Of a DNA stretch of 64,000 bases, positions 35,433 to 61,001 are shown piece after piece. The first letter of the stretch is position 1. Every line of letters starts with the position of its first letter. The notes below the pieces were generated by a model that saw only the letters and a list, made by a program, of their open reading frames with translations, ran no database searches and was not told where the DNA came from. The position numbers were made by a program, and so were the translations under genes. Source of the DNA: an uncultured Litoreibacter sp. Lineage in GTDB: Bacteria > Pseudomonadota > Alphaproteobacteria > Rhodobacterales > Rhodobacteraceae. The stretch lies in assembly GCA_947501685.1 (NCBI GenBank), contig CANMWQ010000005.1, forward strand, positions 186,001 through 250,000. Reading direction: 5' to 3'.

Positions 35433-35445
35433 TTCCTCCCTAGGT

Positions 35446-35486: not shown

Positions 35487-35537
35487 TAACCGCGAAGGGG
35501 CTAGGCTTGTCAACAGACAAGTCGAGGAGGAGCGGTC

Positions 35538-36347: not shown

Positions 36348-36371
36348 TTTCCCAGAAAGGGAGCCACCCCC

Positions 36372-38300: not shown

Positions 38301-38327
38301 TTGTGTTTGGCTGCATAGGGGGTGCCT

Positions 38328-39089
38328 ATGTTGAGCCAGCGACAGCGCAAAATTCTTGGAGTGATCGAGGCCCAGCAGCGGGTGCGGGTGGAGGATTTGG
38401 CGGAGCGGTTTGCGACCTCTCCGCAGACCATTCGCAAGGATTTGCAGGCGCTGGCGGAGCTGCATCATGTGGTGCGGTTTCATGGTGGTGCGGCTTTGGT
38501 GGGGGGTGTGGAATATGCCTCCCCTGCGCAGCGTGAGGGGGATGCCTCGGCGGCAAAACAGGCCATTGGGGCGGCGGTGGCGTCGCGTATTCCGCAGACC
38601 TGTGCCGTGTTCATGAATGCGGGCACCACGACGGCGCAGGTGGTGCGGATGCTTTCGGGCCATAGCCAGCTGCGGGTGATCACGGATAATGTGGATTTTG
38701 CTGCGGAAATGCGTTTGTTTCCGGGCGTTGAGGTGATTGTGCCCGGCGGCGCGGTGCGGCGCTCGGATGGTGCGATTCTAGGGGCGGAGGCCGTGGATTA
38801 CGTGCGGCAGTTCCGGGTGGATTATGCGGTGATCGGGGCGGCGGCTTTGGCCGAAGATGGGGCGCTTTTGGACTTTGATCTGGCCGAGGTGCAGGTGTGC
38901 CGGGCGATGATTGCGCATGCGGCGCATGTGATCCTGGCGATTGATGCGGGCAAGTTCGGGCGCGCGGCTCCGGTGACGCTGGGGCATCTGCGCGACGTGC
39001 ATACGGTTGTGACAGACCGGGTGGCTGCCGATTGGGTTGCGCCGCTCTGCGGCACGCATGAGGTGGAGCTGGTGCTGGCGGGCGCGTAA
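38328..39089 (+). CDS. DeoR/GlpR family transcriptional regulator
   Basis: The 253-residue repressor-type protein has a DeoR HTH (SQRQRKILGVIEAQQRVRVE, then DLAERFATSPQTIRKDLQAL) and a DeoRC sensor domain with NAGTTTAQVVRML, ITDNVDFA and GGAVRRSDGAILGAEA. DeoR members usually sense phosphorylated sugars. The ATG at 38328 sits behind AGGGGG; a GTG six bases upstream would be too close to that RBS. Adjacent to the TRAP and sulfosugar-like genes, it is their likely local regulator (E. coli YihW/CsqR for sulfoquinovose is also a DeoR protein). Confidence 0.88.
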   Translation: MLSQRQRKILGVIEAQQRVRVEDLAERFATSPQTIRKDLQALAELHHVVRFHGGAALVGGVEYASPAQREGDASAAKQAIGAAVASRIPQTCAVFMNAGTTTAQVVRMLSGHSQLRVITDNVDFAAEMRLFPGVEVIVPGGAVRRSDGAILGAEAVDYVRQFRVDYAVIGAAALAEDGALLDFDLAEVQVCRAMIAHAAHVILAIDAGKFGRAAPVTLGHLRDVHTVVTDRVAADWVAPLCGTHEVELVLAGA

Positions 39090-39158: not shown

Positions 39159-39181
39159 GTTTGCGACGTTCTGGGAGGAAC

Positions 39182-39772
39182 ATGGGCTCAGTCTTGGCAG
39201 CGACGCGCATTCTGGCGTTGATCAACGGCACGTTGCTGGCCGTGGGGCGGCATATTTCGGTCGTGCTGATGGGGCTGATGGTGCTGGCGATCCTGATCCA
39301 GGTGTTTTTCCGCTACGTGTTGAACAACGCCCTGCCATGGCCGGATGAGGCCGCGCGGTTCATGATGTTGTGGCTGACCGGGCTTGTTGCGCCCACGGCT
39401 TATCGGCGCGGCGGGTTTGTGGCGATTGATATGCTGGTGCTGATGATGCCACGGGTGGTCTCCGCGTTTCTGTCGATCTTCTTGTTGCTTGTCGCGCTGC
39501 TGGTGCTGGTCGTGGCCACCAAGATCGGCTGGGGTGAGGTCACGGGCTTTGGCGGCAAGTTCAAGACCGCCGCCTTGTGGTTGCCGACGAATATCGGGTT
39601 CACCGAATGGTTCCGGGTGCCGCGCTCGTGGATGATGGCCTCGCTTTTGGTGGGGGTCGCGATGATGACCGTCGTCACGGTCGAGATGATTTTGCGGCAA
39701 GTGCTGATCCTGGCCGGGCGTGAGGACGCGCTGCCGATTATTCCTGAAGCCGCCACGTTGGGAGCTGATTGA
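39182..39772 (+). CDS. TRAP transporter small permease (DctQ type)
   Basis: A 196-residue membrane protein with four hydrophobic helices (about residues 21-42, 56-73, 90-113 and 148-170) and the DctQ signature NALPWPDEAARFMMLWLTGL. It bridges to the large permease in a sodium-coupled TRAP importer. The ATG at 39182 follows GGGAGGAAC; upstream in-frame start rejected as lying in the operator region. Stop overlaps the next start (TGATG). Confidence 0.9.
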   Translation: MGSVLAATRILALINGTLLAVGRHISVVLMGLMVLAILIQVFFRYVLNNALPWPDEAARFMMLWLTGLVAPTAYRRGGFVAIDMLVLMMPRVVSAFLSIFLLLVALLVLVVATKIGWGEVTGFGGKFKTAALWLPTNIGFTEWFRVPRSWMMASLLVGVAMMTVVTVEMILRQVLILAGREDALPIIPEAATLGAD

Positions 39773-41058
39773 TGCTGGTTTGGTTCCTGCCGCTGTTTCT
39801 GGTGTTCCTGTGCATTGGCCTGCCGGTGTTTTTCGGGCTGGTGGCAGCCCCCGGCATTTTGCTGTGGCTGAACGGGCAGGAGAAGGACATCACGCTGCTT
39901 TACCGCAACGTTTATAACGGGATGGACAGCTTCCCGTTGATGGCCATTCCGTTCTTCATGCTGGCGGGCGAGATGATGAACCGGGGCGGCATCACGATGC
40001 GGCTGGTTGAGTTTTCGCAGGCTTGTGTGGGGCATATGAAAGGCGGCTTGGCGCAGGTGAATATCCTGTCCTCGATGCTGTTTGCGGGGCTCAGTGGCTC
40101 GGCGGTGGCGGACACATCGGCACTGGGCTCGATGCTGATCCCGGCGATGGAGAAAGAGGGCTACACGCGGCGCTTTGCGGCGGCGATTACGGCGGCCTCC
40201 TCAGTCATTGGGCCGATCATTCCGCCCTCAGGCATCATGATTATCTACGCCTATGTGATGGGCGAGAGCGTGGCGGCGCTGTTCTTGGCGGGCATCGTGC
40301 CGGGAATTTTGGTGGGCATTGGCCTTATGGCGATGACGTCTTACATGGCGAACTCGTCGGACTTCCCCAAATCGCGGGAGCGGGCGAGCTGGTCCGAGAA
40401 GGGTCAGGCCTCGCTCAAGGCGTTCTTCCCACTGCTGACGCCTGTTATTATTCTGGGCGGCATTCTGGGCGGTGTGTTTACCCCGACGGAGGCGGCGGCG
40501 GTGGCGGTGTTCTACGCCTTCATCATCTCGATCTTTGTGCTGAAAGAGATGAAGTTGCGCGACCTGCCGGATGTGCTGACCAAGGCGGCGCTGACAAGTT
40601 CGGTGGTGCTGTTGCTGGTGGGCGCTGCGATGGCGTTCAAGACGGTGGTGTCGTTGAGCCATGCGCCGGAGACGCTGGCGGCTTACATTCTGTCGCTGTC
40701 TGAGAATCCGTTGGTGCTGCTCTTCCTGATCAACCTGCTGCTCTTTGTGGTGGGCATGTTTTTGGATGCGGGGCCTGCGATCATCATCCTTGGGCCGATC
40801 CTTGGGCCAATCTTCACCTCGCTGGGCGTCGACCCGGTGCATTTCGCGATCATCATGAGCGTGAACCTGACCGTGGGGCTGGCAACGCCGCCGATGGGGC
40901 TGGTCTTGTTTGTGGCCTCAAGCGTCAGCGGAGAACGGGTGGAGGCGATTGCGAAAGCGATTTTGCCTTTCCTCGCCGTCGAAATTGCGGTGATATTCTT
41001 GATAACCTACGTGCCTGCGATCTCGCTGTTCGTGCCGGGATTGTTCGGCTTTCTGTAA
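39772..41058 (+). CDS. TRAP transporter large permease (DctM type)
   Basis: A 428-residue integral membrane protein with about 12 hydrophobic segments and DctM motifs: MAIPFFMLAGEMMNRGGIT, SGSAVADTSALGSMLIPAM, IGPIIPPSGIMIIYAYVMGE and GGVFTPTEAAAVAVFYAF. It is the sodium-driven channel subunit. Translation is coupled to the small permease. The ligand is set by the downstream binding protein. Confidence 0.94.
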   Translation: MLVWFLPLFLVFLCIGLPVFFGLVAAPGILLWLNGQEKDITLLYRNVYNGMDSFPLMAIPFFMLAGEMMNRGGITMRLVEFSQACVGHMKGGLAQVNILSSMLFAGLSGSAVADTSALGSMLIPAMEKEGYTRRFAAAITAASSVIGPIIPPSGIMIIYAYVMGESVAALFLAGIVPGILVGIGLMAMTSYMANSSDFPKSRERASWSEKGQASLKAFFPLLTPVIILGGILGGVFTPTEAAAVAVFYAFIISIFVLKEMKLRDLPDVLTKAALTSSVVLLLVGAAMAFKTVVSLSHAPETLAAYILSLSENPLVLLFLINLLLFVVGMFLDAGPAIIILGPILGPIFTSLGVDPVHFAIIMSVNLTVGLATPPMGLVLFVASSVSGERVEAIAKAILPFLAVEIAVIFLITYVPAISLFVPGLFGFL

Positions 41059-41089: not shown

Positions 41090-42163
41090 ATGAAACTTGG
41101 AACCACTTTGAAGGCACTGGGCCTTGCGGCCATGATGGCCTCGACCAGCGTTGCGGCTTGGGCGGACGGTCATGCAATGACCATTCGCGCCACGGCGAAC
41201 TCGAATGAGAACGACGAGGATTATGACGGTCTGGTCGTGTTCAAGAACTATGTGGAAAGCGCCTCGAACGGGGCCATTACTGTTGAGCTGTTCATCGGCA
41301 CGCAGCTCTGTGGCAACGGCGCGGAGTGCTTGCAGGGCGTGGGCGACGGCACGATTGACGTCTATGTCTCCACCTCTGGTGGTGTGTCGGGGATCTTCCC
41401 GTTCATTCAGGTTCTGGACCTGCCATACCTGATGGCCGATGACCGGATTGCGGAGGCCGCTTTGGCCAATGGGTCGGAGTTCACCACCACGATGCAGAGC
41501 ATGGTGAAGGAAGCCTCCGGCGACAGCATCCGGTTGATGACGATTGGCAACACGGGCGGCTGGCGCAACTTTGCCAACACCAAGCGCCGCGTGGCGGAGC
41601 CGGATGACATGGACGGGCTGAAGATCCGGACCGTTGTGGCTGACCTGCCGCAAGAGCTGGTGAAAGCGCTTGGCGCCTCGCCGACCCCGATCCCGTGGCC
41701 TGAGCTGTTCACCTCGTTCCAGACGGGCGTTGTGGAAGGCTCCAAGAACGGCATCACCGACATCATGAACATGAAGTTCCCGGATGCGGGTCTGAAATAT
41801 GTGACGCTGGACGGGCATGCCTATATGGGCGCGCTGTGGTTCATGAATAACGAGAAGTTCCAGTCGATGGATGACGCCATGAAACGCGTCGTCGTGGACG
41901 GGTTCTACCAGCTGCAGCAGGCGACATTTGCGTCACCGAAGCGCAAGTCGATCCAGGCTTATGAGGATTTCGTGGCCGCGGGCGGCGATCTTTATGTGCC
42001 GTCGCCAGAGCAAAAGGCTGCGTTCAAGGATGCGGCGGCTCCGGTGTTTGACTGGTTCAAGGAGAATGTCGAGGGCGGCCCGGCTGCGTTTGACGCGCTG
42101 AGTGCTGCGGTTGCCACGGCTGAGGCCCAGGTCAATGCAGCACGGGACGCAGACCTGAAGTAA
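41090..42163 (+). CDS. TRAP transporter substrate-binding protein (DctP family)
   Basis: The 357-residue periplasmic receptor has a signal peptide (MKLGTTLKALGLAAMMASTS, cleavage near AWA-DG). DctP-family features include NTGGWRNFANTKRRV and MDGLKIRTV, with the conserved Arg that anchors an acidic ligand. The ligand is unknown; with the downstream genes, an anionic (sulfonated) sugar is a reasonable candidate. A strong terminator closes this transcript. Confidence 0.9.
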   Translation: MKLGTTLKALGLAAMMASTSVAAWADGHAMTIRATANSNENDEDYDGLVVFKNYVESASNGAITVELFIGTQLCGNGAECLQGVGDGTIDVYVSTSGGVSGIFPFIQVLDLPYLMADDRIAEAALANGSEFTTTMQSMVKEASGDSIRLMTIGNTGGWRNFANTKRRVAEPDDMDGLKIRTVVADLPQELVKALGASPTPIPWPELFTSFQTGVVEGSKNGITDIMNMKFPDAGLKYVTLDGHAYMGALWFMNNEKFQSMDDAMKRVVVDGFYQLQQATFASPKRKSIQAYEDFVAAGGDLYVPSPEQKAAFKDAAAPVFDWFKENVEGGPAAFDALSAAVATAEAQVNAARDADLK

Positions 42164-42282: not shown

Positions 42283-42747
42283 TCAGCGGAACGGATACAT
42301 CCAAACTTTGTAATCGGCGATCAGCTCATGCGCGTGGTCAATCTGCTCTTTGGTCATCTTCTTGACCACTTCCTCTTGGGAAATTGCCGCGTCGGGGTCG
42401 CCTCCGATCGCGCTGAGCGCGTACCACATATAGGCGCGGGTCAGATCGACCGCCGTGCCGATGCCCTCCTCGTAATACCAGCCGATGCCAGATTGCGCGC
42501 CGGGGTGGCCCTTCATGGAGCTGCGGAGATACCACTCGAACGCGCGGACCGGGTCTTTTTCGACGCCGAGGCCGAGCGCGTACATGACGCCGATCAGCTC
42601 CTCCGCGTCGGCATTGCCGGAGCGGGCAGCGGGCCAGAGCGCCTCGCGGGCTTCTTCGAATTTATTGGCCTCCATCAGGTCGCGGGCCTGTTCGATATCG
42701 GCCGTGGCAGGCAGGGTCATCAGGGCAAGGATGGCAAATATGCGCAT
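42283..42747 (-). CDS. Secreted Sel1-like repeat protein
   Basis: The 154-residue product has a signal peptide (MRIFAILALMTLPATA) and Sel1-type helical repeats: ADAEELIGVMYALGLGVEKD, then GAQSGIGWYYEEGIGTAVDL, each followed by RAFEWY/RAYMWY. Sel1 repeats mediate protein contacts, often in periplasmic or envelope stress functions. It is divergent from the di-heme cytochrome gene with only about 12 bases between starts, so the two promoters must overlap coding sequence. Confidence 0.75.
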   Translation of the reverse strand: MRIFAILALMTLPATADIEQARDLMEANKFEEAREALWPAARSGNADAEELIGVMYALGLGVEKDPVRAFEWYLRSSMKGHPGAQSGIGWYYEEGIGTAVDLTRAYMWYALSAIGGDPDAAISQEEVVKKMTKEQIDHAHELIADYKVWMYPFR

Positions 42748-42759: not shown

Positions 42760-44025
42760 GTGTTGGGGGCAGTTTGGCTTGGCTTGGGCGCGGCTGCAAT
42801 GGGGCCCGCAATGGCGCAGGCACCGGAGGGGATGTTCCTGCCGGTTGACGCGGAGATGGCCGCGATTGGCCAGCTGTTGTTTTACGACCCGATCTTGTCT
42901 GGCAACCAGAATATCTCCTGCGGGACCTGCCACAACCACGAGCATTTCAGCGCCGACGGGGTGAGCCTTGGCATTGGCGAGGGCGGGGTTGGATTGGGGC
43001 CGAAGCGGGTGACGCGGGAAGGCCCCGACCAGATCAAGAAACGCATTCCGCGCAACGCGCAGGCTTTGTTCAATGTGGGCGCGTTGGAGGTGTTTTTCCA
43101 TGACGGGCGGCTCGGGGCCTCGCCTGATTACGGCAATGGGGTGAACTCCCCGGCGGAGGAGTTTTTGCCGGAAGGCTTGGACAGCTTATTGGCGGCGCAA
43201 GCGCTGTTTCCGATGACCTCGCAGTTTGAGATGGCGGGCAACCCCAAGGAAAACGAGGTGGCCGGCGCCATTCATGACCGCATCGACATGGCCTGGCCCA
43301 TTCTGGCCAAGCGGGTGCGGATCAATGACACGTATCGTGCGATGTTTGCGCAGGCGGGGGTCGGAGAGGTCTCGATTGCGGATATTGGCAATGCTTTGGC
43401 GGCCTTTATGGACGCGGAGTGGCGGTCTTTTGACAGTGCTTATGACCTTGGCACGATGGATGCGGCGCAGACCCGAGGCGCGGAGTTGTTCTTTGGGGAG
43501 GCGGGTTGCGCCGATTGCCATGGCGGGCCGCTGTTTACCGACGAGAGCTTTCACGCGATTGGCTTGCCGCCCTTTGGGCCGGGCCGGACGCGGCGGTTTG
43601 ACCTGATGCCGCGCGACGTGGGCCGGATGGCGGAGAGCGACGCATTGGAAGATGCCTACAGGTTCCGCACGCCGTCCCTGCGCAACGTGGCTTTGACCGG
43701 GCCTTACGGGCATAACGGGGCCTACCCGACGCTGGAGGGGATCATTCGGCATCATGCCGACCCGTTGGGTGGCCTCGATGCGTGGCGGTCTGAGATGGCG
43801 CAGCTGCCGGAGGTGCCTTGGTTGCAGCGGGCGGATTTCATCATTCACCAGGACAGCCGGGAGATGGCGCGGGTGCGCGCGGCGATTGATCTTGAGCCGC
43901 GTGATTTGAGCGATGCCCAGATCATGGATTTGGTGGCCTTCATGGGGGCGCTGACGGGAAAACGCTCCATTCATGGGCGGTTGGGCAAACCGGATGCCGT
44001 GCCCAGCGGGCTGAGGGTGGATTGA
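42760..44025 (+). CDS. Di-heme cytochrome c peroxidase/MauG-like protein
   Basis: About 421 residues: N-terminal export signal (LGAVWLGLGAAAMGPAMAQA), first heme CGTCHNH at about residues 49-55, second heme CADCHGG at about residues 247-253, and SLRNVALTGPYGHNGAYPTL, conserved in CcpA/MauG proteins. These periplasmic enzymes reduce hydrogen peroxide or make oxidative modifications. The start is uncertain: no ATG fits before the signal peptide, so GTG 42760 or TTG 42763 is proposed, with a weak RBS. Its stop overlaps the sugar kinase start (TGATG), coupling it to the sugar operon, which is unexpected. Confidence 0.8.
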   Translation: MLGAVWLGLGAAAMGPAMAQAPEGMFLPVDAEMAAIGQLLFYDPILSGNQNISCGTCHNHEHFSADGVSLGIGEGGVGLGPKRVTREGPDQIKKRIPRNAQALFNVGALEVFFHDGRLGASPDYGNGVNSPAEEFLPEGLDSLLAAQALFPMTSQFEMAGNPKENEVAGAIHDRIDMAWPILAKRVRINDTYRAMFAQAGVGEVSIADIGNALAAFMDAEWRSFDSAYDLGTMDAAQTRGAELFFGEAGCADCHGGPLFTDESFHAIGLPPFGPGRTRRFDLMPRDVGRMAESDALEDAYRFRTPSLRNVALTGPYGHNGAYPTLEGIIRHHADPLGGLDAWRSEMAQLPEVPWLQRADFIIHQDSREMARVRAAIDLEPRDLSDAQIMDLVAFMGALTGKRSIHGRLGKPDAVPSGLRVD

Positions 44026-44894
44026 TGGCGCGTGTGATGGTTGCGGGCTCGGCCACGCTGGATTTCGTATATCAGGTGGAACGGCTGCCGGAAGGCGGCG
44101 CGAAATACGCGGCGGAGGCTGTGGATATCGTTGGGGGTGGATGTGCGGCGAACGCGGCGGTGGCTGTCGCGCGTCTGGGCGGAAAGTCCCAATTATTAGC
44201 GCGTTTTGGCCGTGATACCGTGTGTGAGACGGTGCTTGGGGATATGCTGTCTGAAGGTGTTGACAGTTCTGCCTGTCAGATCAGCGAGACGGGGCGCTCG
44301 GCGCTGTCGTCAGTCTATGTGGATAAGTCGGGCGAACGGCAGATCATGGCGTTCCGGGGATCGGGGTTGGCGGAGGCGCCGGGTCCTTTTGAGCTGCGTG
44401 CGGATGCGGTGTTGGCCGATACGCGCTGGCCTGAGGCGGCGCGGCAGGTGATCGAGATGGGGCGCGCTTTGGGCGTGCCAAGCGTGCTGGATGGCGAGGC
44501 CCCGGTCCCTGCGGAACTGGCGGCGGCGGCCTCGCATGTTGTCTTCTCGGAGCAGGGGTTGCTGGATTTTACCGGGCTTGTGGATGTGGCGGAGGCCTAC
44601 GCGGCGTTGGACCTGCCGGGCTGGTGCGCGGTGACGTTGGGGGCGGCGGGCGTGCTGCATCCGGGCGGCGTGTTGCCGGGGTTTGAGGTGGATGTGAAAG
44701 ACACGCTTGGCGCGGGCGACGTGTGGCACGGGGCGTTCACGCTTCGGCTGGCGGAAGGTGCGGATGAGACAGAGGCGATGCGGTTTGCCCACGCGGCGGC
44801 GGCCTTGAAATGCACGGGTTTCGGGGGGCGCAAAGCGGCGCCCTCGCGGGCTGAAGTGGAACAGTTTTTGAAAGAGAGAATGGCATGCAACTGA
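44025..44894 (+). CDS. PfkB family sugar kinase, YihV-like (candidate 6-deoxy-6-sulfofructose kinase)
   Basis: A 289-residue ribokinase-family kinase: substrate-side LPEGGAKYAAEAVDIVGGG (residues 21-39), AVLADTRW (128-135), SVLDGEAPVP (153-162), and the anion-hole/catalytic motif DTLGAGDVWHGAF with base Asp232. Compared with E. coli YihV as I recall it, the matches are extensive (GKY.A, VGGG.AA.AAVA.ARLG, VLAD.RW, VLDG, GAGDV.HGA, AALKCT..GGR). YihV phosphorylates 6-deoxy-6-sulfofructose at C1. Other ketose kinases cannot be excluded. Overlaps the aldolase gene by 10 bases. Confidence 0.85.
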   Translation: MARVMVAGSATLDFVYQVERLPEGGAKYAAEAVDIVGGGCAANAAVAVARLGGKSQLLARFGRDTVCETVLGDMLSEGVDSSACQISETGRSALSSVYVDKSGERQIMAFRGSGLAEAPGPFELRADAVLADTRWPEAARQVIEMGRALGVPSVLDGEAPVPAELAAAASHVVFSEQGLLDFTGLVDVAEAYAALDLPGWCAVTLGAAGVLHPGGVLPGFEVDVKDTLGAGDVWHGAFTLRLAEGADETEAMRFAHAAAALKCTGFGGRKAAPSRAEVEQFLKERMACN

Positions 44895-45910
44895 CAGCAG
44901 GAAAACTATGGGGCATGCGGCGCATGGCCGACGCGGGCGGCGTGTTCAAGATGACCGCCGTGGACCAACGGCCTCCGATCAAGGGTCCGATAGCGGCGCA
45001 TTACGGCGTGGAACAGGCGCCTTACGAGGATGTTGCGCGGTTCAAGGCGATGCTGGTTGAGACGTTGCAGGGCGGATCGAGCGCGATGCTGCTGGACCCG
45101 CATTACGCGATCCCGGTGGGGCTGCGGCACCTGTCGCCCACCAAGGGGCTGATCGTGACGCTTGAGGACTCGCTGTTTGAGGAGACCGGAAACGGGCGGC
45201 TGTCCTCCTCGATTGATGATTGGGACGTGGGCAAGATCAAGCGGATGGGCGGCGACGCAGTGAAGGTGCTGGCGTGGTACCGGCCTGACGCCAGCGCGGA
45301 GGTGAACCAGAAGCAGAAGGACTGGACCAAGCGGATTGGCGAGGCCTGCGCGAAATATGACATCCCGTTCCTGTTTGAGCTGCTGGTGCATCCGATTGAC
45401 AGCGATGCGGAGCAGACGTCTGACTATATCGAGATGAACACCAAGCGGGCGGATGATGTGCTGCGCTCGGTGGAGGCGTTTGCGGGCGCGGATTTCGGCG
45501 TGGATGTGTTCAAGCTGGAAAGCCCGGTCCCGGCCAAGGACGTGGCCACGACCGACGGGGTTCAGGCGTTGTTTGACGAGATGGGACGGCTGGCGGGACG
45601 GCCTTGGGTGATGTTGTCCGCGGGCGCTGGCAAGCCGGAGTTCAAGGCGATTTTGGAACATGCTTTTGCCGCCGGGGCGTCGGGCTTTTTGGCGGGTCGG
45701 GCGATCTGGTTGGACGCGTTTCAGGCCTTTCCGGATTGGGATGCGATCCGGGCCGGGCTAGAGGGGGAAAGTGCTGCCTATATGGCTGAGATTTCCGCGC
45801 TGGCGGATGCCAAGGCCACGGCTTGGGACAAGCATGCCTGCTGGGGCGAGGGTGGCGCGCAATTTGCGCCTGCGGATGCGTCCTTCCGGCACGGGTATGA
45901 GGGTCTCTGA
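44885..45910 (+). CDS. Class I tagatose-bisphosphate/sulfofructose-phosphate aldolase (LacD/YihT family)
   Basis: A 341-residue TIM-barrel aldolase with AVDQRPP (residues 25-31), a conserved Lys127 in GGDAVKVLAWYRPDA, the Schiff-base Lys210 in VDVFKLESPV, PWVMLSAGAG, and GASGFLAGRAIW (residues 264-275) with Arg272. In E. coli YihT the same block GASGFLAGRAVW contributes to binding the sulfonate/phosphate of its substrate. It would split a ketose-1-phosphate into DHAP and a three-carbon aldehyde (sulfolactaldehyde if the sugar is sulfofructose). Slightly longer than YihT (about 292 residues). One-base overlap with the isomerase gene. Confidence 0.85.
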   Translation: MQLTAGKLWGMRRMADAGGVFKMTAVDQRPPIKGPIAAHYGVEQAPYEDVARFKAMLVETLQGGSSAMLLDPHYAIPVGLRHLSPTKGLIVTLEDSLFEETGNGRLSSSIDDWDVGKIKRMGGDAVKVLAWYRPDASAEVNQKQKDWTKRIGEACAKYDIPFLFELLVHPIDSDAEQTSDYIEMNTKRADDVLRSVEAFAGADFGVDVFKLESPVPAKDVATTDGVQALFDEMGRLAGRPWVMLSAGAGKPEFKAILEHAFAAGASGFLAGRAIWLDAFQAFPDWDAIRAGLEGESAAYMAEISALADAKATAWDKHACWGEGGAQFAPADASFRHGYEGL

Positions 45911-47253
45911 TGAAGATCGGGATCTTGCCGCTGGGGCGGCCGACATTCGATGTGCCTTATGCTGAGGAAAAACTGGCAGGGATGCTGGCGGATTTGGACG
46001 CGTTAGAGGGGCACGAGGTCATCGGGCCGCGCGCTTTGTTGATGGAGGCATCGCCTGAGGCATTGGACGCCGTGGCGTCGGCTGATCTGGTGTTGGTGTT
46101 GCAGGTGACATTTACCGATGCGTCCTTCGTTGTGGAGGCCTCCAAGCTGGGCGTGCCGATGGCGATTTGGGCGGTGCCGGAACCTCGGCTTGGCGGACGG
46201 CTCAGGCTGAATGCGTTTTGCGGGCTGAACCTGGCGGGGCATGCGTTGGGGCGGAACCATGCGGGGTTTGGCTGGCTTTATGCCGATCCCGGCGAGGCTG
46301 ATCTGGCGGGACTTTTGGCGGGCAAGTATCGCGTCACGCGGCTGGACGGGACCGCGCCGGGCGTTGCGGCGACGGCGATGCCGGTGCCGGATTTGCGCAT
46401 CGCGCGCATTGGCGCGCACCCGGTGGGCTTTGACACCTGCGCCTATGACAAGGCGGAACTGAAGGCGCTGATCGGGGCGGAAGTGGACGAGTTGGAGCTG
46501 TCGGACATGTTCGATGCCGCACGCGGTTTGGGTGAGGACGCGGTCGCGCCATATCACGCGAAAGTGGCGGATGTGCCGAACCTCAAAGACATGGATGCAG
46601 GCGAGCTGGACCGCTCTTTGAGGCTGGCGGGCGCGCTTGAAATGCTGCGCAGCGAAAACAAATATGACGCCTTCGCCATTCGCTGCTGGCCGGAGACATT
46701 CACCGAATATGGCGGCGCGGTCTGCGGCCCCGTTTCGATGATGGGCGAGGCCCGCGTGCCTTGTGCCTGCGAGGCGGATGTCTACGGCGCGGTGACGCAG
46801 GCGATTTTGCAGGAGGTGGCTAATGCCCCTGTTTTCTTGGCTGATTTGGTCGATATGAATGAGGAGCATGACACGGGCGTGGTGTGGCATTGCGGGCAGG
46901 CTCCGGTCTCGATGACCGAAGACGAGCCGATGGCCACGGTGCATACGAACCGCAAACAGGCGCTGCTCTACGAGTTCACGTTGAAGCCCGGACGGGTGAC
47001 GTTTTTCCGGCTGTCGCAGGCTTACGGCCAGCCGAAAGTGGTGATTGCGGGCGGTAAAATGCTGCGCAGCGAAATGGCATTCACGGGGACCTCAGGCGTG
47101 GTGCGGTTTGACCATGCCGCGCAGCGGGTTCTGGGCGATGTGATGAATTCCGGGCTGGAACATCACATGGCCATTGCCTATGGCGACCACCGCGAAGCGC
47201 TGCGCGGGATTGCGGCGGGCATGGGCTTGAACGTGGTGGAGCTGGGCGCGTGA
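45910..47253 (+). CDS. L-fucose isomerase-like protein (candidate aldose/sulfoquinovose isomerase)
   Basis: The 447-residue protein has an N-terminal Rossmann-like domain (MKIGILPLGRPTFDVPYAEE) and a C-terminal L-fucose/L-arabinose isomerase-fold domain with AIRCWPETFTEYG (residues 256-268) and ACEADVYGAVT (286-296), where E288 and D290 are likely metal ligands. Aldose-ketose isomerases of this superfamily use Mn2+ or similar metals. L-fucose-isomerase-type enzymes have been described as SQ isomerases in the sulfo-EMP2 variant, matching its place between aldolase and Gfo/Idh/MocA genes. Substrate is inferred. Confidence 0.8.
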   Translation: MKIGILPLGRPTFDVPYAEEKLAGMLADLDALEGHEVIGPRALLMEASPEALDAVASADLVLVLQVTFTDASFVVEASKLGVPMAIWAVPEPRLGGRLRLNAFCGLNLAGHALGRNHAGFGWLYADPGEADLAGLLAGKYRVTRLDGTAPGVAATAMPVPDLRIARIGAHPVGFDTCAYDKAELKALIGAEVDELELSDMFDAARGLGEDAVAPYHAKVADVPNLKDMDAGELDRSLRLAGALEMLRSENKYDAFAIRCWPETFTEYGGAVCGPVSMMGEARVPCACEADVYGAVTQAILQEVANAPVFLADLVDMNEEHDTGVVWHCGQAPVSMTEDEPMATVHTNRKQALLYEFTLKPGRVTFFRLSQAYGQPKVVIAGGKMLRSEMAFTGTSGVVRFDHAAQRVLGDVMNSGLEHHMAIAYGDHREALRGIAAGMGLNVVELGA

Positions 47254-48341
47254 TCAGATACGGGATTATCGGCTCCGGCATGATGGGGCAGGAGCATATT
47301 CGCAATATTGCGCTGCTCGATGGGGCCTGCGTGGGCGGCATTGCTGACCCGAATGAAGAAATGCGCGCGCTGTCGGTGAAAAACTCCGGCGGGCAGGGCT
47401 TTGGCACGATGGAGGAGATGCTGGCCGCAGATGTCTGCGACGTGGTGCTGGTGGTCTCCCCCAATGACACGCATGCGGGGATCATGCAGAGGCTGCTGGC
47501 CACCGATAAGCCGATCCTGGTGGAGAAGCCGCTGGCGACCACAAGTGCGGATTGCCGGGACTTGCTGAACATGTCCAAAGGTCGCAAAGCGCCGGTTTGG
47601 GTGGCGATGGAGTACCGCTATATGCCGCCCTTGCAGCGGCTGATGCAGGCGGTGGATCAGGGCGCGGTGGGGACTCCGCGCATGATGTCGATCCGCGAAC
47701 ATCGGTTTCCGTTTCTGCCCAAGGTGGATGACTGGAACCGGTTCAATGCGCGGACGGGCGGCACGTTGACAGAGAAATGCTGCCATTTCTGGGACCTGAT
47801 GCGGCTGGTTCTGAAAAGCGACCCGGTGCGGGTTTACGCCTCGGCTGGGGTGGATGTGAACCATCGCGACGAGCGCTATATGGGCAAGATGCCTGACATT
47901 ATCGACAACGCCTATGTGGTGGTGGATTTCGAGAATGGCGCGCGGGGGATGCTGGATTTGTGCATGTTTGCCGAAGGGTCGTTCTGGCAGGAAACCATTG
48001 CTGTGACGGGCGAAAAGGCGCGGGTGGAGGCGTTTGTGCCGGGGCCTGCGCGGTTCTCTCCGGATGGGAAAGAACGCGAGGCGGAGTTTGTGATGTCACT
48101 GCGCGCGCTGAAGGAAGAGGTGCGCGAGGTGGTGCATGTGCCGGAACATATTCTGGCGGCGGGGGATCACCATGGCTCGACGTTTTTTCAGCATGAGAAG
48201 TTTTTGGATTTGGTGCGAACAGGGGTGGGCGCGCCGGAGGTCTCGTTGCAGGATGGCTATTGGTCGGTGTTGGTCGGCGAGGCCGCTGAAGAATCTGCGC
48301 GGTCGGGCCAAGCGATTGATCTTAGAGGCAAAGGCCCATGA
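47250..48341 (+). CDS. Gfo/Idh/MocA family protein (candidate NAD-dependent sulfoquinovosidase, GH188-like)
   Basis: A 363-residue NAD(P)-dependent protein: Rossmann motif GIIGSGMMG (residues 5-13), EKPLAT (residues 92-97), and GGTLTEKCCHFWDLMRLV (residues 170-187) with catalytic-region Lys176 and His179. Most members are sugar dehydrogenases, but a Gfo/Idh/MocA-like clade (GH188) cleaves sulfoquinovosides through transient NAD+ oxidation. Position in a sulfoglycolysis-like operon without any GH31 sulfoquinovosidase makes that role attractive. GTG start at 47250 overlaps the isomerase stop (GTGA). A plain sugar dehydrogenase remains possible. Confidence 0.8.
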   Translation: MIRYGIIGSGMMGQEHIRNIALLDGACVGGIADPNEEMRALSVKNSGGQGFGTMEEMLAADVCDVVLVVSPNDTHAGIMQRLLATDKPILVEKPLATTSADCRDLLNMSKGRKAPVWVAMEYRYMPPLQRLMQAVDQGAVGTPRMMSIREHRFPFLPKVDDWNRFNARTGGTLTEKCCHFWDLMRLVLKSDPVRVYASAGVDVNHRDERYMGKMPDIIDNAYVVVDFENGARGMLDLCMFAEGSFWQETIAVTGEKARVEAFVPGPARFSPDGKEREAEFVMSLRALKEEVREVVHVPEHILAAGDHHGSTFFQHEKFLDLVRTGVGAPEVSLQDGYWSVLVGEAAEESARSGQAIDLRGKGP

Positions 48342-49324
48342 CATTTGGAGAAATGCCGGATGGCAGCACGGTGGAGCGGCACCGGATCGAGGGCGGCGGG
48401 CTGACGGCGCATGTGCTGTCTTATGGCGCTGTGTTGCAGGACTTGCTGCTTGCGGGGCATGACGCGCCGCTGGTGCTGGGGTTTGACGACTTCGCGCCTT
48501 ATCTGACTGACAGCCCGTATTTTGGGGCCACTGCCGGGCGCTGTGCGAACCGGATCGGGGAGGGACGGTTCGAGATTGACGGCGTCTCCTATCAGGTCGA
48601 CCAGAATTTCCAGAACCGGCATCACCTGCATGGCGGCGCCAAGGGTGTGGGCAAACGCAATTGGACTGTGGAAAGCGTGGGCTCTGACCGGATCACGCTG
48701 CGCATTGAGCTGGCCGATGGTGAGATGGGCTATCCCGGCAATATGGTCGCAAGGTGCAGCTTTGCTTGCCTAGAGGGCGGCGTGTTTGACGTGCGGCTGA
48801 GTGCTGAGACGGACGCGCCGACGCTGTGCAATTTTGCCCATCACAGCTATTGGAACCTCGATGGTGGGGCGACCACGGATGACCATCTTTTGCAGCTGGA
48901 TGCGGACCGGGTGACGGTGGTGGATGACGGGTTTATTCCTACGGGCGAGAGCCGGGACGTGACGGGCAGCCGCTATGATTTTCGGCAGATGCGGCCGATC
49001 AAGGACACCGTGTTTATCGACCACAATCTGTGCCTGTCTGACGCACGTATGGATTTGCGCAAAATTGGGGTTTTGATGTCCAAGGCCTCCGGGGTTGCGA
49101 TGGAAATGCGCTCGACGGAGCCGGGGTGTCAGGTTTATGACGGGTTCAAGTTGGACGTGAAACCAAAGGGGCTTGGCGGGCGTTCATATGGTGCCAATGC
49201 GGGTGTCGCGCTGGAGCCTCAGATCTGGCCGGACGCCGTGAACCATGACACATTCCCGAACGCGATTTTGCGGCCGGGGGAGATATATGACCAACACACC
49301 CAGTTTGTGTTTTCAAAAGGATAA
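48338..49324 (+). CDS. Aldose 1-epimerase (galactose mutarotase family)
   Basis: A 328-residue GalM-type mutarotase with GATAGRCANRIGEGRFEIDG (residues about 64-83), a histidine in NRHHLHGG, the catalytic His in CNFAHHSYWNLDG, and a C-terminal catalytic Glu region (GANAGVALEPQIWPDAVNHD). It interconverts alpha and beta anomers of an aldose. In an SQ operon it would be the SQ mutarotase that supplies the anomer used by the isomerase. ATGA overlap with the preceding gene. Confidence 0.9.
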   Translation: MTFGEMPDGSTVERHRIEGGGLTAHVLSYGAVLQDLLLAGHDAPLVLGFDDFAPYLTDSPYFGATAGRCANRIGEGRFEIDGVSYQVDQNFQNRHHLHGGAKGVGKRNWTVESVGSDRITLRIELADGEMGYPGNMVARCSFACLEGGVFDVRLSAETDAPTLCNFAHHSYWNLDGGATTDDHLLQLDADRVTVVDDGFIPTGESRDVTGSRYDFRQMRPIKDTVFIDHNLCLSDARMDLRKIGVLMSKASGVAMEMRSTEPGCQVYDGFKLDVKPKGLGGRSYGANAGVALEPQIWPDAVNHDTFPNAILRPGEIYDQHTQFVFSKG

Positions 49325-49330
49325 AGCGCG

Positions 49331-50773
49331 ATGAGCTACAGCAAATATATGAAAGAGGCGAACCTCATTGGCGGCCAGTGGGTGGGGGCTGATAGTGGCG
49401 AGACCATCGACGTGAACAACCCCGCGACGGGTGAGGTGATCGGGACCGTGCCGAACTCGGGCGACGTGGAAACTGTGCGCGCGATTGACGCAGCGGACGG
49501 GGCCTTTGACGGGCTGGCAGGCATGGCGCTGATGGAGCGTGTGGGTCTGCTGATGAAGATGCATGACGCGCTGATGGACAACCAGAAGACGCTGGCCGAG
49601 CTGCTGACTGTTGAGATGGGCAAGCCGATGGCGGAATCCATGGGCGAGATCGGCATCGGGGCGGCTTATGTGCGCTGGTTCGCCGAGGAAGTGCGCCGCG
49701 CGAAGGGGGAGATAATCCCTGCGCCGACCAATGGCCGTCGCTTTCTGGTCAGCAAGCACCCGATTGGCGTGGTGGGGATGATCACGCCCTGGAATTTCCC
49801 GTCTTCGATGCTGGCCCGCAAGATTGCGCCCGCGCTGGCGATTGGCTGCACCGTGGTGGCCAAGCCTGCGACGGCGACGCCGTATTCGGGGCTGGCCTGG
49901 GGCGCTTTGGCCGAAGAGGCCGGGTTTCCGGCGGGGGCGGTCAATGTGGTGACAGGGTCCGCGCGCAAAATCGGCGGCGCGATCATGGATGACGCGCGGG
50001 TGCGCAAGGTGACGTTCACGGGCTCCACGGAAGTGGGCAAGGAGTTGATCCGGCAATCGGCTGGGACGGTGAAGAAGGTCTCTATGGAGCTGGGGGGCAA
50101 CGCGCCGTTTCTGGTGTTCGACGACGCGGATGTGGACAATGCCGTGCAGGGCGCGATGGTGTCGAAATTCCGCAATTCGGGGCAAACCTGCGTTTGCGCC
50201 AACCGTATCTATGTGCAGGCGGGCGTCTATGATCAGTTTGTCGAAAAGCTGATCGCAGCGACAGCGGCGATGAAAGTGGGCAACGGGCTGGAAGACGGCG
50301 TGGAGCAGGGCCCGATGATTGACATGGATGCGGTGGCGAAGGTCGAGGAGTTCATCGCGGATGCCAAGGCAAAAGGCGGCAGCGTGGCGCATGGCGGCAA
50401 GCGGCATGACAAGGGGCAGAGCTTCTTTGAGCCGACAGTGATCACGGATGCCACGCAGGAGATGATGTTCGCCAAGGAAGAGATCTTCGGACCCATCGCG
50501 CCGGTCTTCAAATTTGAGGACGAAGATGAGGCGATTGGCTGGGCCAATGACACGGAGTTCGGGCTGGCCTCTTACGCCTATACCCGCGATGTGGGCCGAA
50601 TCTTCAAGCTGACCGAGAAGCTGCAATATGGGATGATCGGGATCAATTCGGGGCTGATCACGACCGTGGAGGCTCCGTTTGGCGGGGTGAAGGAAAGCGG
50701 GCTGGGCAAAGAGGGCGGCAGCCAGGGTTTGGAGGACTATATGGAGACCAAATACACCGCGATTGATTTTTGA
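49331..50773 (+). CDS. NAD(P)-dependent aldehyde dehydrogenase, GabD type (candidate sulfolactaldehyde dehydrogenase)
   Basis: A 480-residue ALDH of the succinate-semialdehyde dehydrogenase subfamily: MITPWNFPSSM, FTGSTEVGKELI, catalytic Glu253 in MELGGNAP and nucleophile Cys287 in GQTCVCAN, with the GabD second Cys two residues later. Known sulfolactaldehyde dehydrogenases belong to this subfamily and oxidise SLA to sulfolactate. As the last gene of the operon it would oxidise the aldolase's aldehyde product. A succinate-semialdehyde or other role cannot be excluded without testing. Confidence 0.88.
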   Translation: MSYSKYMKEANLIGGQWVGADSGETIDVNNPATGEVIGTVPNSGDVETVRAIDAADGAFDGLAGMALMERVGLLMKMHDALMDNQKTLAELLTVEMGKPMAESMGEIGIGAAYVRWFAEEVRRAKGEIIPAPTNGRRFLVSKHPIGVVGMITPWNFPSSMLARKIAPALAIGCTVVAKPATATPYSGLAWGALAEEAGFPAGAVNVVTGSARKIGGAIMDDARVRKVTFTGSTEVGKELIRQSAGTVKKVSMELGGNAPFLVFDDADVDNAVQGAMVSKFRNSGQTCVCANRIYVQAGVYDQFVEKLIAATAAMKVGNGLEDGVEQGPMIDMDAVAKVEEFIADAKAKGGSVAHGGKRHDKGQSFFEPTVITDATQEMMFAKEEIFGPIAPVFKFEDEDEAIGWANDTEFGLASYAYTRDVGRIFKLTEKLQYGMIGINSGLITTVEAPFGGVKESGLGKEGGSQGLEDYMETKYTAIDF

Positions 50774-54712: not shown

Positions 54713-55591
54713 CTAGCCGCGTTGGCCGTAATAGAGCCCGACGGTGTGCTCGGCCTCTGCGAAGAACAGCCAGCGGGTGGTCAGCGCACCTGCGACATGG
54801 GCGAGGATGGCGACCACGGCCAGCATATGGCTGAATGGGAAGAACATCAGCAGCGCCCATGGCAGCAGCGACAAAAGCACCAGCCCGATGATGCGCAGAT
54901 TGCGTGCGTGTTTGCGCCCGATGACGTGGACCATTTCCTTCATCAGGTAGTTCTTGGAGCTGTGCGGCGCCTCGAACATGCGGGTCTTGCCGATGGTGCC
55001 AAGGCCCGTGGCGGTCTCGATGGTGGAGCCGGACGCAGCGAAGCGTTTATCCCCGATGACCCATGCAAGGATTTGCAGGATGCCGATGGTCACAAGCCCT
55101 GCGGCGGTGATCTGGACCTGTCCCGTAAGAAAGGCCCCGCCCGTGAGCGCGTAGCTGAGGAAGACCAGCGGCGTGGTCCAATGATGCCAGCGCGGCACGG
55201 TTTTGATCTGGGTGTAGATCATCGAGGTGCCAAGCACCGTCAGGACACAAAGAGCCGCGCCCAACAGGCCAAGCATCCCGATGCGGGTGTTAAAGAAGAT
55301 GATGCCGATGGCGTAGAGGCCCATGACAATAAGCGTGGCGACGGCGAGGCAGCCTTCCCGTGAGAGCCAACTGGTGCGCCATTGGCTGAAGGCTTTCAGC
55401 GCGCGTTGCGGGTTGCCGAGGTGGAAGGTGGAGGAGATGAGCCCGCCGACGGCCAGCGCGTAGGCGATGGCGAAAAAGACAAAGGCGGTGAAGCCGGAGA
55501 CGTCGGGTTTGCCAAGGCCCAAGAAGGCCAGCATGCCGAAGCCGAGGCCGGAGAAGACGGTGAAGAAGATAATGGAAGGTGCGGGATGCAT
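54713..55591 (-). CDS. soeC: Sulfite dehydrogenase membrane anchor SoeC (DmsC family)
   Basis: A 292-residue integral membrane protein with about eight hydrophobic helices and the DmsC-type segments FHLGNPQRALKAFSQWRTSWLSREG and KRFAASGSTIE. It anchors the SoeAB catalytic module to the inner membrane and passes electrons to quinone. Assignment to SoeC rather than DmsC rests on adjacent soeB/soeA and the xsc/pta/exporter neighbours. Overlaps the soeB stop by one base. Confidence 0.86.
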   Translation of the reverse strand: MHPAPSIIFFTVFSGLGFGMLAFLGLGKPDVSGFTAFVFFAIAYALAVGGLISSTFHLGNPQRALKAFSQWRTSWLSREGCLAVATLIVMGLYAIGIIFFNTRIGMLGLLGAALCVLTVLGTSMIYTQIKTVPRWHHWTTPLVFLSYALTGGAFLTGQVQITAAGLVTIGILQILAWVIGDKRFAASGSTIETATGLGTIGKTRMFEAPHSSKNYLMKEMVHVIGRKHARNLRIIGLVLLSLLPWALLMFFPFSHMLAVVAILAHVAGALTTRWLFFAEAEHTVGLYYGQRG

Positions 55592-56331
55592 CAGAGTTTC
55601 TCCAGCGTTTTGTCGAGCCAGCCGAGAAAGCCCGTGGGCTCAGCGGCGATGGGTTCCAGAAGGGGCGCGAGGATGTCGATCTGCTCGTCCTTGGGGCGGG
55701 GCGGCAGGTATTTGTTGACGGGTTTCGTGCCTTGTTCGGGCATCAGGTCGAAGCCGCCGCGTTCCTTGACGAGGATGGAGACGTCGGAATTCTCGTCGCC
55801 CAGATCGCCAAAGTGACGCGCGCCTGCTGGGCAGGTGCGGACGCAGGCGGGTTGGCGGTCTTCTTCGGGCAGGTTTTCATTGTAGATGCGGTCGACGCAG
55901 AGGGTGCATTTCTTCATCACACCCTCGGCTTGATCTAGCTCGCGCGCGCCGTAGGGGCAGGCCCAAGCGCAGAGGCCGCAGCCGATGCAGTCGGACTCGT
56001 TGACCAAGACGATGCCGTCTTCCACACGCTTGTAGCTGGCGCCTGTCGGGCAGACGGTGACGCAAGGCGCGTCCTCGCAATGCAGGCAGCTTTTGGGGAA
56101 ATGGATGGTTTGTGCCGCTCCTGTTTCGGGCTGCACCTCGTAGCTGTGGACGCGATTGAGGAAGGTGCCGGACGGGTCCTTGCCATAGGCGTTTTGGTCG
56201 CTGAGCGGCGCGCCGTAGTTTTCCGTGTTCCAGCCTTTGCAGGACACCACGCAGGCATGGCAGCCGACGCAGGTGTCGAGGTCGATGACAAGGCCGAGCT
56301 TTTTGTCGGTATGGGTGGGGAGATTGGTCAT
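55591..56331 (-). CDS. soeB: Sulfite dehydrogenase iron-sulfur subunit SoeB
   Basis: A 246-residue ferredoxin-like subunit with four [4Fe-4S] cysteine clusters: DLDTCVGCHACVVSC, CLHCEDAPCVTVCP, CIGCGLCAWACP and CTLCVDRI...CVRTCP. It relays electrons from the SoeA molybdopterin site to SoeC. The ATG at 56331 gives MTNLPTHTDKKLG, the family start; longer in-frame extensions cross the repeat element. No Tat signal, consistent with cytoplasmic SoeABC. Confidence 0.9.
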   Translation of the reverse strand: MTNLPTHTDKKLGLVIDLDTCVGCHACVVSCKGWNTENYGAPLSDQNAYGKDPSGTFLNRVHSYEVQPETGAAQTIHFPKSCLHCEDAPCVTVCPTGASYKRVEDGIVLVNESDCIGCGLCAWACPYGARELDQAEGVMKKCTLCVDRIYNENLPEEDRQPACVRTCPAGARHFGDLGDENSDVSILVKERGGFDLMPEQGTKPVNKYLPPRPKDEQIDILAPLLEPIAAEPTGFLGWLDKTLEKL

Positions 56332-56359
56332 TTGGAGCCCTCCTTGGCAGAGGTCGGAA

Positions 56360-56397
56360 GCCTCCGGCGGGGATATTTTGAAACATGGAAAGGGGTC
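56360..56397. repeat. Dispersed operon-end repeat, family 1, copy d
   Basis: GCCTCCGGCGGGGATATTTTGAAACATGGAAAGGGGTC, shared almost exactly with copy c. It lies between soeA and soeB in the orientation opposite to copies a-c relative to local transcription, so inside an operon instead of at its end. Confidence 0.65.
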
Positions 56398-59218: not shown

Positions 59219-59980
59219 CTAGTTGGATACGGTGCGCAAGAGGCCGAGCGAGGCGAGGCCAAGCAAAAGCGTCAGGCAGAAAGGTTTGTAATAAGGCTCA
59301 AGGCGCGGAATGAAGAGCGCGCGGCCGACATAGAGCCCGATAAGCGTCGGGATGATGAAGAACAGCCCACGGGCGACGGCGACCTGATCCATCGTGCCGA
59401 TAAGCAGATGGGTGGTGAGGCCGATAATGCCCGCGCCGAGCAGGTAGATGGAGAGCGTGCCGCGCATTGTGCGCGGATCAAGCTGGCGCGACAGCATGTA
59501 AAGCGCGATGAACATGCCGCCCGCGCCGGAAAAGCCGGTGATAATGCCCGCGACGAGGCCCGCGCCATAGGTGCCAGCGGTGGTGGCAAGGAACGGCAGG
59601 CGCAGCTTGAACAGCTGGCTGAGCGCCAGCACGATTAGGATCGTCAGCGCCACGGCTTTCGAGGTATCGGTGGGCAATTGCAGGTTCAGCAAAAGGCCAA
59701 TGGGCAAGCCGAGGCCGCTGCCGATGATCAGGCCCTTGGCGGTGGGTCTGTGGGCGTCGGCCAAGCCGCCTTTGAACATCGCAAGGCTGCCCGCCATTTC
59801 GAGAAACCAGAGCATGGGGATCAGGGCCAGCGGCGGCAGGATGAAGATGGCCGAGGCCATGACCACCGCAGACAGACCGAAGCCGGAAAAGCCGCGCACC
59901 ATGGCTGCAAGGAAAGTGATGCCGCTGAGCAGCAGCAGCTCCGTCCCTGTCAGATTGGTGAGATCGGCCAGCAGTGTCAT
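59219..59980 (-). CDS. TauE/SafE family sulfite exporter
   Basis: A 253-residue membrane protein with about eight hydrophobic segments and the family motif AAMVRGFSGFGLSAVVMASA (residues 26-45), repeated later as GIITGFSGAGGMFIALYML. TauE/SafE proteins export sulfite or organosulfur anions. Four-base overlap with pta; soeA starts 13 bases downstream, linking export and oxidation of the sulfite produced by Xsc. Confidence 0.9.
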   Translation of the reverse strand: MTLLADLTNLTGTELLLLSGITFLAAMVRGFSGFGLSAVVMASAIFILPPLALIPMLWFLEMAGSLAMFKGGLADAHRPTAKGLIIGSGLGLPIGLLLNLQLPTDTSKAVALTILIVLALSQLFKLRLPFLATTAGTYGAGLVAGIITGFSGAGGMFIALYMLSRQLDPRTMRGTLSIYLLGAGIIGLTTHLLIGTMDQVAVARGLFFIIPTLIGLYVGRALFIPRLEPYYKPFCLTLLLGLASLGLLRTVSN

Positions 59981-60915: not shown

Positions 60916-60953
60916 AACGTATTCTCCCAAAACGCGGCCTTTTCACCATGAAA

Positions 60954-60977
60954 CCCGCCCCAATTTCTTGGGGCGGG
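60954..60977 (-). terminator. Hairpin between xsc and pta
   Basis: CCCGCCCC and GGGGCGGG form a perfect 8-bp stem with an 8-base loop, 24 bases after the xsc stop. With only a short T run, partial termination or xsc mRNA stabilisation is more likely than a full stop. Confidence 0.65.
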
Positions 60978-61001
60978 CAGGGTCGTAGTATGTAGCAGAA
61001 A

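Follow-up and report, generated by a model that had tools for sequence, protein, structure and literature searches.

Sulfoquinovose (SQ) is the sulfur sugar of plant and algal lipids. The sulfoglycolytic Embden-Meyerhof-Parnas (sulfo-EMP) pathway of Escherichia coli (yih genes) and of Arthrobacter AK01 and AK04 has a YihV-type kinase, a class I aldolase and a DeoR-family regulator, with a GabD-type dehydrogenase and the glycosidase SqgA in Arthrobacter AK01. The sulfo-EMP2 pathway, represented by SqvD, SqiK and SqiA of Bacillus urumqiensis, joins an SqvD-type isomerase to a kinase of the PfkA type (PF00365) and an aldolase of class II (PF01116) (PMC9594981). Sulfo-EMP has been placed in Proteobacteria and Actinobacteria, with mention of hybrids (review PMC12890257), and an Arthrobacter variant (PMC8873060) and a hybrid SQ cluster of Yersiniaceae (PMC9594981) have been described. 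Here we analysed a 64,000-nucleotide stretch of DNA (the window; positions 186,001 to 250,000 of contig CANMWQ010000005.1, assembly GCA_947501685.1) from an uncultured Litoreibacter sp.; the assembly comprises 16 contigs with a total of 3.3 Mb, and this stretch belongs to contig 5. A seven-gene operon in this window very probably encodes a hybrid sulfo-EMP pathway for SQ and its glycosides. The genome is Litoreibacter-like, as the closest loci by isomerase are from Litoreibacter (L001-L007, 72-94% identity).

The operon shares with the E. coli and Arthrobacter systems the proposed intermediates, the YihV-type kinase, the class I aldolase and the DeoR-family regulator, and with Arthrobacter AK01 also the GabD-type dehydrogenase and SqgA. 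However, its isomerase is not of the YihS family (PF07221, no match in the genome), its aldolase is not of the YihT lineage, its importer is a tripartite ATP-independent periplasmic (TRAP) transporter, and it has no YihQ. With sulfo-EMP2 it would share the SqvD-family isomerase, the intermediates and the oxidation to sulfolactate, whereas its kinase is PfkB rather than PfkA and its aldolase class I rather than class II. The hybrids of Yersiniaceae and Pseudovibrio (YihV/YihQ) and of Zymomonas plasmid pZZM402 (SqgA) have the same isomerase family but a class II aldolase; the YihV-type kinase is common to the window and Yersiniaceae, and SqgA to the window and Zymomonas. The pZZM402 locus combines a class II aldolase, an epimerase, an SqvD-type isomerase, SqgA, a TonB receptor and a succinic semialdehyde dehydrogenase (SSADH), and is likely an SQ cluster on the plasmid of an ethanol producer.

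All seven open reading frames lie on the + strand, nose to tail, with a largest gap of 6 bases (end/start: MauG 44025/kinase 44022, kinase 44894/aldolase 44885, aldolase 45910/isomerase 45910, isomerase 47253/SqgA 47250, SqgA 48341/epimerase 48338, epimerase 49324/aldehyde dehydrogenase 49331). An earlier note on this DNA had listed these seven genes, six of them as overlapping or nearly adjoining; all are open at the positions it claimed, and Pfam supports each family that it named (CCP_MauG, PfkB, DeoC/LacD, Fucose_iso_C, GFO_IDH_MocA, Aldose_epim and Aldedh), as well as the DeoR regulator and the TRAP importer (DctP, DctQ, DctM) upstream. In the proposed pathway, SQ or SQ-glycerol would be imported by the TRAP transporter, SQ would be released by SqgA (GH188) with NAD+ via transient C3 oxidation, the anomers would be equilibrated by the epimerase, and SQ would be converted to 6-deoxy-6-sulfofructose by the SqvD/SftI-type isomerase. 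The YihV-like kinase would phosphorylate C1 of sulfofructose, the LacD-type class I aldolase would cleave sulfofructose-1-phosphate to dihydroxyacetone phosphate and sulfolactaldehyde using a presumed Schiff-base Lys210, and the GabD-type aldehyde dehydrogenase (ALDH) would produce sulfolactate. The earlier note had proposed such a route of isomerisation, C1 phosphorylation, aldol cleavage and oxidation under the name sulfo-EMP2-like. The route is well supported; the name would suit the isomerase but not the rest, because a PfkB/YihV-type kinase and a class I aldolase stand in place of the PfkA-type and class II enzymes. Pfam gives PfkB and DeoC/LacD for these two genes, not the families of SqiK (PF00365) and SqiA (PF01116).

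The strongest pointer to SQ is the Gfo/Idh/MocA gene, whose family the earlier note had recognised without assigning a function. Rather than an accessory gene, it is an SqgA (GH188) homologue and the predicted gateway glycosidase. Its best sequence matches in PDB were 8zn9 (388 bits), 8qc3 (367) and 8qc2 (362), and the next best reached 89 bits. The 8zn9 deposit names no function, while 8QC2, 8QC3, 8QC5, 8QC6 and 8QC8 are SqgA structures, and Kaur et al. (2023) named the residues that hold SQ (PMC10755693). These positions were mapped on an Arthrobacter SqgA (ArSqgA), with a numbering offset of 2 fitted on eight of the tested letters, and compared in the window protein, the Zymomonas protein and 38 locus proteins (of 40 locus matches). 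The catalytic and SQ-contacting residues Lys107, Tyr136, Glu189, His193 and His321, the sulfonate triad Arg166, Leu170 and Lys172, and Glu at 164 (Glu163 in PMC10755693) were the same in every one of the 40 sequences, so that all nine tested positions are retained. In a Devosia protein that belongs to the family but is not an SqgA, six of these nine residues are different. A GH31 sulfoquinovosidase was ruled out as the glycosidase of this genome, in which no PF01055 match was found.

The isomerase appears to belong to the SqvD/SftI type and is proposed to act on SQ. Its sole NCBIfam match is NF048012 (sulfoquinovose isomerase), over the full length (E 4e-75), and at E 1e-10 the 36 aligned isomerases all hit this model alone within NCBIfam. 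Relatives occur in Yersinia/Chimaeribacter (41-42% identity) and Pseudovibrio (42-48%); in five such loci the isomerase adjoins close homologues of E. coli YihQ, YihV, YihU and CsqR together with a class II aldolase, in agreement with the published Yersiniaceae cluster (PMC9594981). No real match to the sequence was found among PDB chains. The predicted fold (mean predicted local distance difference test, pLDDT, 93.4) matched L-arabinose and L-fucose/D-arabinose isomerases in Foldseek, with template modelling (TM) scores of 0.46-0.59 by query and a root-mean-square deviation of about 23 A, indicating that the domains are placed differently. Glu288, Asp312, His418 and His419 are invariant (36/36), and the spacing of 24 residues between Glu288 and Asp312 equals that between Glu337 and Asp361, which we take to be metal ligands of FucI.

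The likeness of the kinase to E. coli YihV, pointed out in the earlier note, was confirmed (40% identity over 294 aligned columns). Its first sequence match in PDB was 2rbc, titled "sugar kinase" (175 bits), and the second was the sulfofructose kinase 7ag6 (167 bits). The earlier note had held that kinase and aldolase should not fall with tagatose and fructose enzymes in a phylogeny, and the kinase passes this comparison. In a tree of 45 rows, it grouped with YihV-type kinases, apart from PfkB, LacC and FruK (97/76 and 98/92); this tree and that of the aldolase both carry long-branch warnings. Lys27, Asn109 and Arg138 are presumably the sulfonate-contacting residues of YihV, and all 34 kinase rows keep Lys27 and Arg138. 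The YihV-like kinase is a proposed sulfofructose 1-kinase.

The aldolase contains both motifs quoted in the earlier note (VFKLESP and GASGFLAGRA), and Lys210, Glu165 and Arg272 are invariant (29/29). Its PDB sequence matches were led by 8tnf (294 bits), followed by LacD-type aldolases (up to 125 bits) and YihT (67-68 bits). The predicted structure (pLDDT 89.6) had its best fold match in the same entry, at 43-45% identity across almost the entire fold. The deposit title of 8TNF is sulfohexulose-1-phosphate aldolase of Paracoccus onubensis strain Merri. On the other hand, the aldolase reached 319 bits against the PRK12858 "tagatose 1,6-diphosphate aldolase" subfamily model (cut-off 184), which would suit an operon for tagatose, fructose or another unsulfonated hexose degraded via a 1,6-bisphosphate. 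We consider this extremely unlikely: neither lac genes nor a LacAB-type isomerase are among the Pfam matches of the operon, the genome has Xsc and ComDE, and both the position of the kinase apart from LacC, FruK and PfkB and the invariant sulfonate-binding Arg and Lys of SqgA speak against it, the plain tagatose pathway included. The score against the LacD equivalog TIGR01232 was 120.5 bits, short of the cut-off of 432. Related kinase-aldolase pairs (aldolase 48-49%) stand beside an ATP-binding cassette (ABC) sugar importer on plasmids of Shinella (L072) and Neorhizobium (L069), the former also with a GabD-type ALDH and a TSUP exporter and the latter with an arylsulfatase; these pairs possibly represent another sulfosugar route.

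The ALDH is GabD-like and has the catalytic Cys and both Arg residues proposed for sulfonate binding in RlGabD (PMC10599462). A relative of the epimerase is present in 34 of the 55 related loci that were collected by isomerase search, 54 of which show the isomerase at a coverage of at least 40%. Over these loci we found the kinase in 43, the window-type aldolase in 38, SqgA in 40 and YihQ in 7; SqgA or YihQ occurred in 47 loci and both together in none. The order kinase-aldolase-isomerase-SqgA, on one strand and within 6 kb, is kept in 31 of 55 loci, and therefore a chance arrangement is very unlikely. Class I LacD-type and class II aldolases never occurred together (0/55), and no YihU match was found in loci of the window type. 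Among 61 genomes, the aldolase (E 1e-30) was present in 16, all with the isomerase, which itself (E 0.001) was present in 17; SqgA (E 1e-60) was present in 26. The protein sets exclude proteins with internal stops, with no stop in the locus or with less than 70% coverage, so that the aldolase alignment has 29 rows (28 of 36 locus proteins and the window) and the isomerase alignment 36 (35 of 51 and the window). A SAR324 locus (L053) gave a weak YihQ match (27%), but SQase-like motifs turned up inside its aldolase only. Another locus (L087, contig 77 of genome G034) has the isomerase, a YihV-like kinase and SqgA but no match to the window aldolase, and is flanked by genes for a D-2-hydroxyacid dehydrogenase and a malonyl-CoA-synthase-like ligase.

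Several observations weigh against the SQ assignment. The aldolase, called YihT/LacD-like in the earlier note, shares only 28% of its residues with E. coli YihT. Its tree (43 rows, long branches flagged) has a 100/100 split that separates YihT and an Arthrobacter aldolase from LacD and the window type. Orthology to YihT is thereby ruled out, and the aldolase falls on the LacD side and so fails the earlier note's phylogenetic comparison, yet its closest solved structure is the deposited sulfohexulose-1-phosphate aldolase. No assay of this LacD-type lineage was found in the literature, though an earlier description of it in print may exist; its putative function is read from the deposit title and the gene context. 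For the kinase, the fork that excludes ribokinase (RbsK) is weak (95/44), and the window has Ala in place of YihV Asn109 (a position with 25 Asn, 5 Ala and 4 Ser in 34 rows). The isomerase scored 253 bits against NF048012, below the equivalog cut-off of 700, as did the YihQ-adjacent relatives from Chimaeribacter (267) and Pseudovibrio (296). Both Arg residues of the ALDH occur in SSADH too and do not discriminate it from sulfolactaldehyde dehydrogenase, and the top-scoring models for the ALDH, all below their cut-offs, are GabD-type SSADH. Finally, eight of the 55 loci have neither SqgA nor YihQ, several of them on short contigs.

The LacD affinity of the aldolase also suggests sulfofucose (6-deoxy-6-sulfo-D-galactose) as the substrate, which would be converted to sulfotagatose and sulfotagatose-1-phosphate before LacD-type cleavage, with a sulfonated product and downstream steps as for SQ. 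Strain Merri (as P. wurundjeri) grows on sulfofucose, not on SQ, and a PF00294/PF01791 kinase-aldolase pair of this strain was considered for such a route (PMC12421959). From strain and family, we infer that the 8TNF protein is the aldolase of this pair, so that the closest solved relative of the window aldolase comes from a sulfofucose degrader. However, Merri uses an Entner-Doudoroff route, sulfofucose failed to induce the pair, and isomerase activity could not be observed (PMC12421959). The missing induction of what we take to be the 8TNF protein also weighs against the SQ assignment. The window-type isomerase co-occurs with sulfoquinovosidases of two unrelated families, and SqgA retains the Glu that contacts the C4 hydroxyl of SQ in the published SQ complex. 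The Pfam matches of the operon, to which this search was confined, do not include the SfcH, SfcD, SfcF and SfcE families of the sulfofucolytic Entner-Doudoroff pathway (sfc). We rate sulfofucose as a much less likely but still serious alternative, and prefer SQ as the substrate.

Candidates for the steps beyond sulfolactate are present in the genome. Sulfolactate would probably be oxidised to sulfopyruvate; ComDE would then act as the decarboxylase and Xsc would remove the sulfonate, and the sulfite would be oxidised or exported. The sulfoacetaldehyde acetyltransferase Xsc (61002-62771) scored 934 bits against TIGR03457 (cut-off 676). The earlier note had placed a sulfonate module 5 kb downstream of the operon; the module exists, but it is on the opposite strand and begins about 4 kb away with a molybdenum oxidoreductase set (54713-59206), while its diagnostic gene, xsc, is about 10 kb away. 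No NCBIfam model above its cut-off names the function of this set, which by its context may be the SoeABC sulfite dehydrogenase. A dehydratase SuyAB for sulfolactate was rejected, as the single PF04295 match is galactarate-dehydratase-like (385 bits, cut-off 731). ComD and ComE score above their cut-offs; their genes lie elsewhere in the genome and form a co-directional row with those for HisD-like, short-chain (SDR), Zn-type and LldD-like dehydrogenases. HpsN is presumably a relative of HisD, and we take the dehydrogenases of the row to include a resemblance to a sulfolactate dehydrogenase. They also resemble the 2,3-dihydroxypropane-1-sulfonate (DHPS) enzymes HpsN, HpsO and HpsP (PMC11131964). 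It is thus possible, though not our favoured view, that sulfolactate is merely excreted and that ComDE, Xsc and Soe are uncoupled from the operon and serve taurine, DHPS or isethionate, which would leave the SQ pathway intact up to sulfolactate. The location of the Xsc module on the - strand beside a MocR-like regulator, the separate comDE operon with its DHPS-enzyme-like dehydrogenases, and the excretion of sulfolactate by sulfo-EMP Arthrobacter strains (PMC8873060) are consistent with excretion, whereas the presence of candidates for the later steps argues for coupling. With ComDE, Xsc and a putative sulfite dehydrogenase in one genome, a single cell might mineralise SQ completely.

The TRAP importer can be tied to SQ because the same type of DctP sits in all five sulfoquinovose monooxygenase-like (sulfo-SMO-like) clusters of the same genus, at 72-77% identity; a relative of DctM in these loci is 69-73% identical over about half of the query. 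These clusters have a luciferase-like monooxygenase beside an aldo/keto reductase, a flavin reductase and SqgA (48-52%), and by this content, assigned by Pfam for one locus (L082) and by tblastn for the other four, appear to be a sulfo-SMO-like set. Among 21 genomes of the genus, 13 have the isomerase, five the monooxygenase, none both and three neither (one of these only 57% complete); the exclusion gave p = 0.0028 in Fisher's exact test, with kinship not corrected for. The regulator is 34% identical to E. coli CsqR (153 bits) and also matches the GlpR-type model PRK10906 (198 bits, below the cut-off), and may be a CsqR-like repressor.

The first gene of the operon encodes a MauG-like protein with two CxxCH motifs. 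Its start codon is uncertain; GTG at 42760 suits a signal peptide by eye. The gene is found in 24 of 55 loci and immediately before the kinase in 22 of the 31 loci with the core order, and no match was found in the five sulfo-SMO-like stretches (16 kb each). To our knowledge, a MauG-like protein has no role in known SQ pathways. A Sel1-repeat protein with a signal-like start (42283-42747, - strand) is encoded head to head with MauG and convergent with DctP. The Sel1-repeat gene occurs in the same 24 loci as MauG, and a relative (72-79%) adjoins DctP in all five sulfo-SMO-like stretches. LacD-type enzymes can tolerate either C4 configuration. In an unlikely but far-reaching view, the LacD-type enzyme would be a third sulfohexulose-1-phosphate aldolase lineage with a recruitment of its own, apart from YihT and SqiA, the operon would, given this tolerance, serve both SQ and sulfofucose, and the conserved, secreted di-haem MauG-like protein would be an unreported periplasmic component of sulfosugar use.

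Table 1. Predicted genes of the SQ operon and associated features, with positions in the window.
Feature	Position	Strand	Basis
DeoR-family regulator, CsqR-like candidate repressor	38322..39089	+	DeoRC, HTH_DeoR
TRAP small permease DctQ	39161..39772	+	PF04290, 86 bits
TRAP large permease DctM	39769..41058	+	PF06808, 401 bits
TRAP solute-binding protein DctP, candidate SQ/SQ-glycerol binder	41090..42163	+	PF03480, 172 bits
Di-haem MauG/CCP-like protein, secreted-looking	42760..44025	+	PF03150
YihV-like PfkB kinase, proposed sulfofructose 1-kinase	44022..44894	+	PfkB; PDB matches; tree
Class I LacD-type aldolase, proposed sulfofructose-1-phosphate aldolase	44885..45910	+	8tnf sequence and fold match; tree
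SqvD/SftI-type metal-dependent isomerase, proposed SQ-sulfofructose isomerase	45910..47253	+	NF048012; fold
GH188 SqgA-type NAD+-dependent sulfoquinovosidase (predicted)	47250..48341	+	8qc3, 8qc2; residues
Aldose 1-epimerase, proposed SQ mutarotase	48338..49324	+	PF01263, 236 bits
GabD-type ALDH, proposed sulfolactaldehyde dehydrogenase	49331..50773	+	PF00171; two Arg
DmsC-like anchor, 4Fe-4S protein, molybdopterin oxidoreductase; candidate SoeABC sulfite dehydrogenase	54713..59206	-	PF04976, Fer4, PF00384
TauE/SafE-type exporter, phosphate acetyltransferase, Xsc	59219..62771	-	PF01925, PF01515, TIGR03457

Downstream of the operon, 50872-53483 (+ strand) encodes an M19 membrane dipeptidase, which also follows the cluster in all but one of the eight loci L001-L008, and then a 544-aa protein without a Pfam or NCBIfam match. 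On the other side, a sugar region (27798-37433), identified by reading translations alone except for the ABC ATPase, encodes a KDPG/KDPGal-type aldolase, a kinase-like protein, an SDR, an alpha-galactosidase-like protein, an ABC sugar importer and an IclR-like regulator.

A cluster of this kind is already in print as a prediction, because Jannaschia faecimaris SqgA is listed in the legend of Fig. 5c on representative SQ clusters (Kaur et al. 2023, PMC10755693) and the single SqgA match of the J. faecimaris genome (E 1e-30) lies in a cluster of the same genes. This cluster (L014) has the TRAP, MauG, kinase, aldolase, isomerase, SqgA, epimerase and ALDH genes as in the window, but about 1 kb extra between SqgA and the epimerase. 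No relevant paper was found for 8ZN9, 8TNF or "sulfohexulose", and nothing in print for SQ with Litoreibacter; SQ with Jannaschia gave two papers, including Kaur et al. (2023). Among the matches listed by a combined search, judged by titles and the starts of abstracts, none dealt with this operon. The thresholds of a 2026 survey, relative to its reference enzymes, were 30% identity as a minimum, E 1e-50 and 70% coverage (PMC13372026); at 28% identity to YihT, the window aldolase may have been missed.

If the assignment is correct, Litoreibacter, Jannaschia, Shimia and their relatives would use a sulfo-EMP hybrid whose aldolase escapes a YihT-seeded search at 30% identity. Species of one genus would then hold either a route that cleaves the C-S bond or one that cleaves a C-C bond, and the choice between them would become testable. 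Should the operon also be coupled to ComDE and Xsc, both tiers of SQ degradation would be found in a single cell.

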